The notes under the pieces: generated by a model | Databases searched by the model: none | What the model saw: only the letters and a program-made list of their open reading frames with translations | What the model was told of the DNA's origin: nothing | Translations under genes and position numbers: made by a program | Shown: one piece after another, positions 15,993-46,817 of the stretch | Numbering within the stretch: position 1 is the stretch's first letter | Layout of the letters: the number at the start of each line of letters is the position of its first letter | Origin: Salinibacter ruber DSM 13855 | GTDB lineage: Bacteria > Bacteroidota > Rhodothermia > Rhodothermales > Salinibacteraceae | Assembly: GCF_000013045.1 (NCBI RefSeq) | Contig: NC_007677.1 | Coordinates: 310,001 to 374,000 of the forward strand | Direction: 5' to 3' | DNA: 64,000 nt

Positions 15993-16092
15993 GAGCGGCC
16001 CAAAGCGGCCCGTTTCACCGCGACCGGCCCGAAGCACAGACTGTAGTCCACTGGCCCTTCACGGCACATAACATCACCGTCACGCCAAGGGA

Positions 16093-16272
16093 TTGACGAC
16101 CCGGGGCTGTGATTTTGTATACTGGTGGCTAAGACACGGTAAGAAATTTAAAGTTCAAGCCACTGTCTTGCGTCGGGCCGGCCCGCTCCTGTCGCTCACG
16201 ATGGCCACACAGGCTCGTTTCGGGGCCCCAGCCTTTTTCCGTACGCTCCGAGACGAGCCTCTTCTTCGTCTG
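16093..16272 (+). ncRNA. Candidate small RNA, copy 1
   Basis: A promoter-like pair (TTGACG at 16093, TTTTGTATACT ending at 16123) is followed about 90 nt later by an inverted repeat AGGCTCGTTTCGG (16211) / CCGAGACGAGCCT (ends 16260) and a pyrimidine-rich tail. The same parts recur at 40074 with nearly the same spacing. The region between is not coding. The hairpin loop here is 24 nt. See copy 2 for the better terminator. Confidence 0.5.
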
Positions 16273-18637: not shown

Positions 18638-19267
18638 ATGTCTGAATTTCACTGCTCTCAAAACGATAAGAACTTCTCTCGCCAAGACGATGCTCTTCGC
18701 CAGGAGAACAGTCAGGAGCAATCGCCTGCTGGCATCCCGATTCCTGCCACAGTTGAGGTGGTCTTCCTCGAAGCTCTCAGCGGCGACGCGCTGAGGGTAG
18801 GCCTCTCCGTTTCCGAGGTATCTGCGCCCGAGCGCTCCGGAGCAGCTGTCGGGCGAGTCCCCGCCGTGGTCTACCTCTGGGGCATCCAGGCCCCGAGGCC
18901 GGGCCAGCCGTTCGGGGCGGCGGCTACGGAAGCGGCCGGCCGGATTTGCGGAGGGAAGCGTCTCCACGTGGCGGCCCGGCGCGCCGGGCCGGAGGGCCGG
19001 ATTACCGGGAGCGTCGTGGCCGAGGAGACAGGCAGTCCCGGAGAGGACACCACTGGAAAGGACACCACTGGAAAGGGCAATGCTGGAAAGGGCAGCAGTG
19101 GAAATCAGGACGTGGGCCGGGCCCTCATCCGCCTGGGGCTGGCGTGGCAGGACCAGCGGGGGCCTTCCTCCGCTCAGCTACGAAGCCTGGAGCAGGAGGC
19201 CCGCCGGGAGGAGGTGGGGCTCTGGCAGCAGGAGGCCCCAACCCCACCCTGGGCGTGGCGGGAGTGA
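18638..19267 (+). CDS. Staphylococcal nuclease-like (TNase) domain protein
   Basis: 209 residues. The SNase-like OB fold covers about residues 35-205: VVYLWGIQAPRPGQPFGAAATEAAGRIC matches the RLxGIDAPExxQPxGxxA segment, DVGRALIRLGLAWQ matches the dVNxxLvxxGxAW helix, and QEARREEVGLWQQEAPTPPWAWR matches the ARxxxxGLWxxxxPxxPWxWR end. The catalytic Arg/Glu/Asp set is not clearly retained (GIQAP instead of GIDAPE; no obvious YGR), so it may bind nucleic acid rather than cut it. Between strands lies a 20-residue insert of TGKD/TGKG-type repeats encoded by four 15-bp tandem units. No signal peptide. Confidence 0.75.
   Translation: MSEFHCSQNDKNFSRQDDALRQENSQEQSPAGIPIPATVEVVFLEALSGDALRVGLSVSEVSAPERSGAAVGRVPAVVYLWGIQAPRPGQPFGAAATEAAGRICGGKRLHVAARRAGPEGRITGSVVAEETGSPGEDTTGKDTTGKGNAGKGSSGNQDVGRALIRLGLAWQDQRGPSSAQLRSLEQEARREEVGLWQQEAPTPPWAWRE
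19043..19102. repeat. 15-bp tandem repeat, 4 units, in frame within a gene
   Basis: Units at 19043, 19058, 19073 and 19088, all ending in TGGA (for example AAGGACACCACTGGA). They encode five-residue repeats in the SNase-like protein and keep its frame. Confidence 0.9.
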
Positions 19268-33893: not shown

Positions 33894-34067
33894 ATGCGTC
33901 AGCGCAAGTATCCGGTATACCTCCGGCGGGACGAGCTCTATTCGTTCCTCAATCCTTTCGTCCCTCGTCCCCTTGGAGGGGGCTGCTCCTGGGGGGAATC
34001 CTACCAGATGCTGGGCGTGCGAACTACAAATCTCTGCAGCAGGCTCGTTTCCGAAATGGGCCTGTAA
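33894..34067 (+). CDS. Possible 57-residue protein
   Basis: The frame starting at ATG 33894 reads RQRKYPVYLRRDELYSFLNP, then FVPRPLGGGCSWGESYQMLGVRTTNLCSRLVSEMGL and TAA. The composition looks protein-like and basic at the N-terminus, but no motif is recognised and overlapping frames exist. It could be a remnant. Confidence 0.3.
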   Translation: MRQRKYPVYLRRDELYSFLNPFVPRPLGGGCSWGESYQMLGVRTTNLCSRLVSEMGL

Positions 34068-38790: not shown

Positions 38791-39354
38791 ATGGTTACCC
38801 GCCTAATGTCTACCCGCTCAATCTCAGCATACGTCCCTCGGGCAGCCTTCCTTGCCGTTCTTGGGCTCGCGCTTCTGGCCGGGCCTGCAGTGGCACAAGG
38901 ATACGGAGACGGCGAGCAGCCCGACATTGTCGACACGGCCGTGGAGGCCGATGACTTCAATACCCTTGCCCAGGCCCTGGAGGCCGCCGGCCTCGTGGAG
39001 GCCCTGAAGGGGGAGGGTCCGTTCACCGTTTTTGCTCCTACCGACGCAGCGTTCGACGCGCTGCCTGACGGCCAGCTTGAGTCTCTTCTCCAGCCTGAAA
39101 ACCGAGAGCAGCTTCAGGCCATCCTGCAGTATCACGTTGTAGGGGGGAAGGCCACGGCCTCGGACGTGACCAGCATGAGCGCCGCCCCAACCCTTGAGGG
39201 CCGGTCCGTTCAGATTCAGGTCGACGATGGCACCGTCCGCCTGATGGGCCAGAACAGCGCCAGCGTTGTGCAGACCGACATCGAGGCGTCAAACGGCGTC
39301 ATTCACGTCATCGACAGCGTTCTCCTTCCCCCGGAGGCCGGTGAGGGAATGTAG
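38791..39354 (+). CDS. Secreted fasciclin (FAS1) domain protein
   Basis: 187 residues. A signal peptide ([18 protein letters not shown]) is followed by one FAS1 domain: [36 protein letters not shown] (H1 motif region), then [19 protein letters not shown] (YHVV), and [17 protein letters not shown] (H2-like). FAS1 domains mediate adhesion or surface interactions. Two ATGs, at 38791 and 38806, result from a 15-bp duplication (ATGGTTACCCGCCTA and ATGTCTACCCGCTCA). Either could be used. The gene is followed by another 15-bp duplication and a terminator. Confidence 0.93.
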
Positions 39355-39564: not shown

Positions 39565-40073
39565 GGCGGGCGGCCGCACACAACCGTGGCCCTGCCGTCA
39601 AGCACCTCTATCAGCTAACCCGATGACCACGCCCCTTTTGTGTGAATACGTTACGCAATTCCGCTGATTGGCGGCACTGTCGTTCGGGGCCGTGTATGAG
39701 TTACGGAAATACATATTATCGCTACGCATTCACGAGCAAAACGGCTATACGGCCATACAGCCGGAAAAGCGTAACGCATTCACGAGAACCGGGGCGATCG
39801 AGGCCCCAGACCGAACGACCGAAATTGAGTTTCGGAGTGGGCTTCGACCCGGTTTTGCGGCTTCGTGCTTTCCCTATAGAGCGAAACTCACTCGGCGACA
39901 GCCCCCGAAACTTGCCCCGAAACGGCCCCATATTGCCGACTCCCCGACAGTTTCGGCGCTTTCTTTCGTACCAGGACCTCGAAAGCGAAACTCACTTTCA
40001 GGGCTCACGCGACGGTTTCGGGGCTGGTTCGCGCAGTCTCGGCCAGGGGTTACTTCACCGTCACGCCTGTCCC
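39565..40073. other. Gene-free stretch, nothing identified
   Basis: About 500 bp, lower in GC than its surroundings, with several CGAAAC/GTTTCG-type motifs (for example GCGAAACTCACT at 39892 and 39979). A weak short dispersed motif, no protein-like frame. Confidence 0.4.
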
Positions 40074-40243
40074 TTGACAACCTGGGAGGTGATTTTTGTA
40101 TGTTACCAGCAGCTGCGTGACGATGATTTTAAAACTGGCCCGCTACCCTCTGTGGAGCGGACTGGTTCCCATAGTCTGCGCTGGCCTTACAGGCTCGTTT
40201 CGGAGTTCCTCCCCCGCTCCTGCTCCGAGGCGAGCCTTTTTGT
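40074..40243 (+). ncRNA. Candidate small RNA, copy 2
   Basis: TTGACA at 40074 and TTTTTGTATGTT ending at 40104 form a promoter-like pair. At 40191-40205 AGGCTCGTTTCGGAG pairs with CTCCGAGGCGAGCCT (40223-40237; two G-U pairs) across a 17-nt loop, followed by TTTTTG, a good intrinsic terminator. The distance from TTGAC to AGGCTCG is 117 nt, against 118 nt in copy 1 at 16093. The transcript would be about 130 nt. No coding potential. Confidence 0.55.
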
Positions 40244-40365
40244 GGCTATGGCCGGTTTCGGCAAAGACTGGTTTGGCCTGTCTCAGAGCTCCCGCGCCTC
40301 GGGCCGCAGACCCTCTGAGGCAGGCCATTTCTACATGCGGATGGTTCGCTACCGGACGTTTTGCA

Positions 40366-43650: not shown

Positions 43651-44580
43651 CTACAGGTCCACCGTCACCAGTGAGACCTCCCCTGTCAGGTCGGCCTCAG
43701 GGCCTGCTCCCGGACGCACCCGGACGGCCGGCAGGCCCACGCTCCACGTGCCGGATTCGGCGCTGTAGCGCAGCGCGCTCCGGCCATCGGGCGCCGCCAA
43801 CAGAACGCCCACGCCCCCTCCGACTGCCGCGCCCGGCGCGCCGAGCACCAGTGCGCCGACCGCCTCCCCTCGATCGGACCCGCCGATTGCGGTCCCCAAC
43901 GCGATTCCGGCCCCGCCCAGGACCGCTCCCCCAAGCACGCCCAGCGCCCACGCCTTCGCATTTCCCCACTCGACATCCGTGTTGATGATTGCGCCCGCGG
44001 GCGGCCCTCCGGCGAGAAGAAGCAGTGCGACCCCTTCGGGCGTGGACTGGTTGCCCCCAGCAGACTGAGGCGGCGCCTCAACCTCGTCGGCCCCAGCGAG
44101 CAGAACCCCTCCCAAGGCCCAGCCCACGGCGGTTCCGATCACGCTTCCCCAGAGGGCCCTGCCGGCCTGCGAGTCCCCCAGCTCCAATGCCGGTCGCTCG
44201 GGTCCTTGCATGCGTTGACGTGATACGCGTTGACGCAATACGATTTGACGCAACGGGACGTCGCGTCGAACCGGGGGCCGCCGAAACGCAGCCAACGACT
44301 GGCGAGGCGCAGGAACCGCGCGCGTGGCACCGGCGTGGAGCAGGTCCATCGGCCCCGGACACAGCGCGGGACTGGCCGCCAGCCTTGCCGGTCGGGCGCA
44401 CATCGGATCTATATGCATCGGGAGGGGGCGGTCGTTGGGAAGGGCCGGGCCGCTCGTGGCCGACTGCCCGGGTTCTGCCGGTAGGGGAGCGGCCACGATC
44501 CCGGACGGGGCGAGGCCACAGAGTAGGACCACCGCGAAGACGAGTGGGCGGATCCCTCGCGACACGAGCGTATGGGGCAT
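43651..44580 (-). CDS. Secreted glycine-zipper protein
   Basis: 309 residues. A signal peptide (PLVFAVVLLCGLAPSGIVAAP) precedes a basic segment containing 5-residue repeats (LRQIVLRQRVSRQR) encoded by three 15-bp units at 44211-44255. The C-terminal part (about 145-290) is Gly/Ala-rich with small-residue zippers (WGSVIGTAVGWALGGVLLAGA, LGGAVLGGAGIALGTAIGG, LGAPGAAVGGGVGVLLAAP), probably membrane-embedded. No named family recognised. The leader upstream of its start contains 18-bp (44589-44624) and 14-bp (44661-44730) tandem repeats. Confidence 0.6.
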   Translation of the reverse strand: MPHTLVSRGIRPLVFAVVLLCGLAPSGIVAAPLPAEPGQSATSGPALPNDRPLPMHIDPMCARPARLAASPALCPGPMDLLHAGATRAVPAPRQSLAAFRRPPVRRDVPLRQIVLRQRVSRQRMQGPERPALELGDSQAGRALWGSVIGTAVGWALGGVLLAGADEVEAPPQSAGGNQSTPEGVALLLLAGGPPAGAIINTDVEWGNAKAWALGVLGGAVLGGAGIALGTAIGGSDRGEAVGALVLGAPGAAVGGGVGVLLAAPDGRSALRYSAESGTWSVGLPAVRVRPGAGPEADLTGEVSLVTVDL

Positions 44581-45709: not shown

Positions 45710-46817
45710 GGCCCACAACTGTTTATCTTGATGAAGGGACGTAAGAAACTTTGCAAAAGGACGTTACCGGGCCGCCTTGATTGCGTTTGGGACCGATCGA
45801 CGAAGCGCGTGTGGGACCGATCGACGAAGCGCGTGTGGGACCGACGAGTCGAACCGCCTGCCTGCACTGGAACGAGCCTCCAGATGGTCGGGCAGGTCGC
45901 GTTGAGCGACGCGGCGTCCGCCTTCGGAGTGGGCGCCTCGAGGAAAATCGCCGGGCCGGTGGAGCGGCGATCCCCGATAGCCGGGGGCGGGCTTCGCTGC
46001 GGGGGCCTTTCTGCGTGCAGGGCCCCCGACCTCTCCGATCCGCTTTTCCGTCTCTGGCGTTTGTCAGGAGAGACGTTGCCGGCCGAAGCGCAGAATGTCT
46101 CGTTGCTAGGGCCGTTCATTGCCAGGGCCGATTATCTGGCGGCTCGGCTGTGACGAGAAAGGGACCCGTCCTGAGAATCAGTACGACGCAGGACCCTGGG
46201 TGAACGGGAGGGAGCCGAAAGCGGAAAAGAAAGACTGAAACGACAGAGCCCCGTGTGGTTGAGACGGATCCCGATACAAATTATCGGGGGGACGGGGGCG
46301 CGCGGCATGGGGGCTGTCAATTTTAGGCCCCGACATTTTTTCGCGTCTGCGACGTGGGGCGCCGGTGCCGGGCAGAGAGCTGTGGCCCGTCACATCTGGC
46401 GGGGGATGGCCCGACGTCTGCGCAACGGGCTGGGCCGAACAGAACGGGCCCCGTGTTCTGCTGGGCTGTGGGGGGCATGGATCGCAAAAACAAAGACAGC
46501 CGAAGCAGAGGCGCGACGGGCCGCCACCGGAACTGCCCGCCAACGGCGGGAGGGTGCGAGAGCGGCGTCGAGAAGACAGGGGGAGGAGGGCCGGTTCCCG
46601 AACCGATCCGGCGCCCCACAGCCAGACGCTACGGCCCGAGCCCCCCGAACACCCCGGAGCTGGGCCCCAAGCCGGGCTCCGGCTCGTCGGTCCGGCTCTC
46701 GCTTTCGGGCCGCGACTGTGAGGAGGACAGGAACGCCCCGTGCCAAAAGCGGGCAGGAAGCGCCTCTGGACAGGCAAAGTGAAATGCCACCTGTCGGGGA
46801 GGGGGGAAGCCCAGGAC
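45710..46817. other. 1.1-kb gene-poor stretch with 24-bp repeat
   Basis: No convincing gene. It contains a perfect 24-bp tandem duplication with a partial third copy (units at 45788 and 45812). Open frames on both strands read through it but lack motifs, and the sequence after 46350 is very GC-rich with many overlapping frames. An AT-rich patch (ATACAAATTATC at 46274) could be a promoter for something on either strand. Confidence 0.5.

Follow-up and report, generated by a model that had tools for sequence, protein, structure and literature searches.

Two loci in the Salinibacter ruber chromosome resemble a plasmid-borne family of putative small RNA genes

The genome studied here comprises a 3,551,823-bp chromosome and a 35,505-bp plasmid, which we take to be pSR35 of Salinibacter ruber DSM 13855. 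Within the window, a stretch of 64,000 nt from base 310001 to base 374000 of the chromosome whose own numbering is used below unless the chromosome or the plasmid is named, two related units (copy 1 and copy 2) lie on the plus strand. Their parts are as follows.

16068..16083, plus strand: direct-repeat box of copy 1, ATAAC-N6-GTCAC with an 11-bp period, 5' of the promoter (from sequence)
16093..16123, plus strand: promoter of copy 1, with TTGACG, a conserved G-rich 19-nt spacer and TATACT (from sequence and promoter class match)
16130..16265, plus strand: predicted small RNA of copy 1, with a diverged interior (covariance model match)
16212..16269, plus strand: terminator hairpin of copy 1, with the weak tail TCTTCTTC (hairpin analysis)
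40049..40064, plus strand: direct-repeat box of copy 2, GTTAC-N6-GTCAC (from sequence and context alignment)
40074..40104, plus strand: promoter of copy 2, with TTGACA, a 19-nt spacer and TATGTT (from sequence)
40111..40243, plus strand: predicted small RNA of copy 2, a rod of helices P1-P2-P3 (covariance model and folding)
40192..40241, plus strand: terminator hairpin of copy 2, with a C-rich loop and a TTTTT tail (hairpin analysis)
40275..40326, plus strand: second inverted repeat downstream of copy 2, GGCCTGTCTCAGAG...CTCTGAGGCAGGCC (context alignment)

We infer that the copy 1 RNA starts ~7 nt past TATACT. A DUF3667 gene follows copy 1 on the same strand after ~170 nt, and an open reading frame 2.4 kb downstream of this copy (18638-19267) is 33-38% identical to plasmid thermonucleases. 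Copy 2 has beside it a Fasciclin-domain gene (38791-39354) that resembles genes of alphaproteobacterial megaplasmids. Upstream of copy 2, the region 39840-39995 contains a repeated GCGAAACTCACT and matches M8 pSR11 just downstream of a P4-type primase gene; this region is possibly plasmid origin debris. The original prediction also placed an IS4-type fragment next to copy 2. A 92.5% DNA match on pSR66 agrees with this, but a Pfam scan of the adjoining open reading frames gave no transposase family, and the IS4-type label thus comes from that prediction together with the pSR66 match.

The resemblance of the two copies had been noticed from their shared TTGAC (16093 and 40074) and from a constant spacing, and both observations were confirmed: TTGAC is followed by GGCTCGTTTCGG after 119 and 118 nt, which equals the 118 and 117 nt to AGGCTCG originally reported. 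The element GTGATTTTTGTAT, described as common to both, is exact in copy 2 (40089-40101), whereas copy 1 is one T short. The hairpin arms (16212-16259; 40192-40236) are indeed preserved, in part through G-U pairs, and the T-run is strong in copy 2, as predicted, and weak in copy 1. A feature overlooked at that time is the box TCACCGTCACGCC, which the alignment revealed in both copies and which ends 6 nt before TTGAC. Local alignment of copy 1 with copy 2 scored 40, against a mean of 9.6 and a maximum of 16 in shuffles (n=500), and nothing in the rest of the window came near this score. Chance similarity of the two copies is excluded. A hairpin at 34040-34064 looks alike; it has neither the promoter nor a family match and was dismissed as a chance occurrence. 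The 19-nt spacing between the -35 and -10 elements is long, and standard scans for promoters (16-18 nt spacing) and terminators (3-8 nt loop) returned nothing at either copy.

The original prediction proposed searching the genome for further copies. The terminator pattern matched only copies 1 and 2, but the family proved abundant on plasmids. Six S. ruber plasmids carry matches to copy 2 with 68-87% identity, all of them in intergenic stretches without annotation, and at least 13 further members were found on the S. ruber plasmids pSR16, pSR31, pSR47, pSR60, pSR61 and pSR118 and on a plasmid of a sister species. A profile search gave ~15 distinct places in all, including pSR47, pSR16 and pSR31 and several on pSR60 and M8 pSR61. 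One plasmid holds up to five copies. M8 pSR61 has three inside 1.5 kb, and pSR118 has two, both recurring on pSR60. The single copy of the sister species lies on a 39.8-kb contig. Sixteen family matches reached E < 1e-8, 11 of which had been used to build the covariance model. Copy 2, itself among the model sequences, scored 156 bits, in the range of the plasmid copies; copy 1 was recovered at 39.6 bits (E 7.9e-8) in a whole-genome search with a model built without it.

The limits of the conserved block are sharp. Mean identity is 0.25-0.32 outside the unit compared to 0.84-0.97 over the GTCAC box, the promoter and the terminator stem; in the aligned contexts it climbs at the GTCAC box and drops to background just past the T-run. 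The motif GTTAC-N6-GTCAC occurs at the same register in the plasmid copies and at other Salinibacter loci, and the -10 element is TATACT in most plasmid copies, in contrast to TATGTT in copy 2. In two copies (pSR118, pSR60), the terminator lacks its 3' arm. The second inverted repeat, located ~40 nt past the T-run, is shared by copy 2 and most plasmid copies and is absent from copy 1 and pSR61a; at copy 2, we suggest that it may be either a back-up terminator or a protein site. Since copy 2 carries this repeat, it is most likely plasmid-derived DNA in the chromosome, and exchange between plasmids and genomic islands has been reported in S. ruber (PMC6060240). Judged by its sequence, copy 1 belongs to the family as a chromosomal member that has diverged. 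The proposal that both copies belong to a family of small non-coding RNA genes that has not been described before and is plasmid-borne in Salinibacter holds up well.

Over 114 genomes of the order, the covariance model of the family gave matches in Salinibacter only. No family match was obtained in a phage collection, a scan of IMG/VR with the terminator and P3 patterns returned 11 loci, none of which contained the unit, and the exact plasmid promoter found no match in a scan of genome contigs. No Rfam 15 family matched at the gathering cut-off, and a permissive threshold yielded chance matches only. A literature search retrieved neither a description of these loci nor a report of a transcript from them.

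The consensus fold is a rod, with a closing helix GGYCA/UGGCC, an inner helix P2 and an apical helix P3, followed by the terminator hairpin. Copies 1 and 2 fold better than shuffled sequences (z of -2.75 and -2.88), in large part because of this hairpin. For the rod itself, 12 pairs were changed on both sides compared to 5.0 in shuffles, with 0 of 500 shuffles reaching 12, in an alignment that was fitted to the model and includes the diverged copies pSR118, pSR61c and pSR61d. A plain alignment gave 4 double-changed pairs versus 3.2, and 10 cells changed on both sides versus 5.2. Covariation support is therefore modest on the plain alignment and clear on the model-fitted one. pSR118b retains the rod in spite of an entirely different sequence in the apical helix. 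In the copy pSR61d, an internal near-tandem repeat (CTACAGGGTCTGTG) enlarges the apical helix. The minimum-energy fold of copy 1 departs from the plasmid rod inside the closing helix, so that its structure is uncertain and may be unlike that rod.

The earlier statement that neither region encodes a protein was extended to the whole family by tests of open reading frames, codon positions and indels. An ATG at +49 from TTGAC meets no stop ahead of the terminator in 9/9 plasmid-type copies; changes are distributed 32/51/51 over the codon positions, with no enrichment at third positions, and a 1-nt indel shifts the frame among family copies. On these results, a small open reading frame or type I toxin mRNA was rejected. 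The selected transcript of ~130 nt that had been proposed likewise gains support: the conserved block runs from promoter to terminator, is non-coding, carries compensatory changes and occurs at ~15 places without a linked transposase. The copies do not always sit at the termini of one IS, and a transposase fragment lies beside copy 2 only.

The promoter extends beyond this family. The covariance model also picked out a relative on the chromosome, at genome position 158 kb, that has orthologues in each of two sister species. Its interior has diverged, with 77% overall identity in the more distant species, while across species the promoter and the entire terminator show few changes, if any, and the C-rich terminator loop shows none. 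The promoter core of this relative occurs at 32 sites in 13 Salinibacter genomes (one per species), compared to 0 for the reversed pattern, and elsewhere in the order only two weak matches were seen. Each of the 31 loci examined lies between genes, and the gene downstream may be on either strand. An intrinsic terminator lies within 170 nt downstream in 24/30 chromosomal loci (shuffles, mean 2.6 and maximum 7; upstream controls, 2/30), and a box like GTTAC-N6-GTCAC is found at a fixed upstream register, its strict form in 10/30 loci and in 0 controls. The bodies in between are otherwise unrelated and mostly ~55 nt long. In the genome studied here, sites of this promoter class were seen on the chromosome at 43974 (+), 45999-46022 (-) and 157922 (+) and on the 35,505-bp plasmid at ~22929, each preceding a short terminated stretch.

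A ~55-nt unit was also found on seven S. ruber plasmids (pSR35, pSR76, pSR66, pSR67, pSR84, pSR47 and M1 pSR61), and at least 12 S. ruber plasmids bear the ~130-nt or the ~55-nt type; pSR11 has neither of the types searched. On pSR76, pSR66, pSR67 and pSR84, the ~55-nt unit is arranged tail-to-tail with a thermonuclease (SNase) gene at a gap of ~65-80 nt; the terminator between them looks bidirectional on these four plasmids. On pSR16, pSR31, pSR60 and M8 pSR61, a thermonuclease gene follows the unit on the same strand. The distance between unit and SNase gene is ~65-450 nt on all eight of these plasmids, and on pSR35 and pSR47 the gene is more distant, behind small genes.

The main rival to an autonomous small-RNA gene is a cis-acting leader of the downstream gene, in which the hairpin would serve as an attenuator with conditional read-through into genes such as those for DUF3667 or the thermonuclease. 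The DUF3667 gene behind copy 1 fits this reading, and upstream of its 62% identical orthologue in a second Salinibacter species there is likewise a degenerate promoter of the class, with a different terminator; the same-strand thermonuclease genes on the four plasmids just named fit as well. However, the next genes vary in identity and strand between loci, the ~55-nt units on four other plasmids are convergent with the thermonuclease gene, copy 2, pSR47 and pSR60a are not followed at a constant distance by a gene on the same strand, and many loci lack a same-strand gene altogether. We consider a leader role unlikely.

It is very improbable that the unit functions as DNA rather than RNA, for instance as a replication or partition site, an IS end or a small non-autonomous transposon. 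Up to five palindrome-bearing copies on a single plasmid would suit such an element, as would the transposase fragment adjoining copy 2 and the similarity of part of its upstream region to pSR11 sequence by the primase gene. On the other hand, neighbouring genes vary between plasmid places and no transposase is consistently adjacent, so the IS-end reading fails. Moreover, the unit boundaries coincide with the promoter and the terminator, the changes keep pairing in an RNA-like way that includes G-U, and the same promoter precedes unrelated short bodies elsewhere. Least probable of all is that the unit and the plasmid SNase gene form a two-part system, e.g., an RNA-controlled nuclease, to which the unit contributes the RNA: the proximity on eight plasmids speaks for it, but several units, including the chromosomal 3-kb loci, have no SNase gene nearby, the orientation varies, and some of the SNases look from their translations to be secreted or membrane-anchored and would therefore not meet a cytoplasmic RNA.

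The unit is probably best explained overall as an autonomous small-RNA gene of a plasmid-borne family. At the sequence level, a promoter and a terminator bound a conserved block that is non-coding and has a structure with compensatory changes. This combination of promoter, terminator and selection makes it very likely that the unit is transcribed. In the mechanism we propose, a regulator binding the direct repeat would control a regulated or strong promoter, made up of the tandem GTTAC-N6-GTCAC box, TTGAC, the conserved G-rich 19-bp spacer and TATACT. This promoter would start a non-coding transcript of ~130 nt that folds into a rod and ends at an intrinsic terminator whose hairpin loop is mostly C-rich, and the resulting stable RNA would act in trans. 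That it regulates plasmid or host genes in this way, via exposed loops or protein binding, is a tentative proposal to which we give slightly less than an even chance.

No target for the RNA was found. Hfq (PF17209) was not detected in the genome, in a search that was positive in 5/14 control genomes. The plasmid genes tested show no Shine-Dalgarno signal, with an SD-like motif in 4/52 versus 6/52 at control positions. Given both results, an anti-SD mode via the C-rich loop is unlikely and was set aside as unsupported; the RNA may bind a protein or pair with particular G-rich targets.

Several known systems share traits with the family. Promoter-defined sRNA regulons, such as the sigma-E-dependent MicA, RybB and MicL or the Qrr sRNAs, likewise group several short terminated RNAs that differ in body but share a promoter type, whereas the Salinibacter promoter combines a conserved 19-nt spacer rich in G with a direct-repeat box of 11 bp and many members are plasmid-borne. 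Counter-transcribed RNAs of plasmid copy control are also short, structured, terminator-ended and found on plasmids, but the Salinibacter family reaches five copies per plasmid and has chromosomal members; in the incomplete plasmid gene table, no annotated opposite-strand gene, rep included, overlaps a plasmid copy. The cuckoo (anti-Shine-Dalgarno) sRNAs share the C-rich loop, which the 158-kb relative and the majority of plasmid copies possess, but here the plasmid genes tested have no SD signal, Rfam gives no match and copy 1 contains no C run. Similarly, 6S RNA is a rod-like RNA with its own promoter, whereas our unit is multi-copy with a separate terminator hairpin, and 6S (RF00013) gave no Rfam match at E up to 10. 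Type III toxin-antitoxin systems (ToxIN) resemble it in having a terminator-ended RNA near a nuclease gene on plasmids, but the unit has no tandem-repeat antitoxin array and its neighbours are SNase-type, in varying placement, or unrelated rather than ToxN-like.

The family itself is new but belongs to a known kind, the promoter-defined small RNAs, and its plasmid distribution and promoter architecture are the unusual parts. A broader proposal, which we regard as doubtful, is that terminated RNAs of ~55 to 130 nt form a regulon under one unusual promoter common to Salinibacter plasmids and chromosomes, with a member on most S. ruber plasmids, often beside an SNase gene, and a role in plasmid maintenance or plasmid-host signalling that involves neither Hfq nor Shine-Dalgarno pairing. 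To our knowledge, little is known of riboregulation in Rhodothermota, and these loci provide a defined set of candidate small RNAs amenable to testing. The family marks plasmid-to-chromosome transfer in S. ruber, and, in a model halophile that can be cultivated, its tie to plasmids and its distinctive promoter could lead to both a regulator and a function for plasmids.
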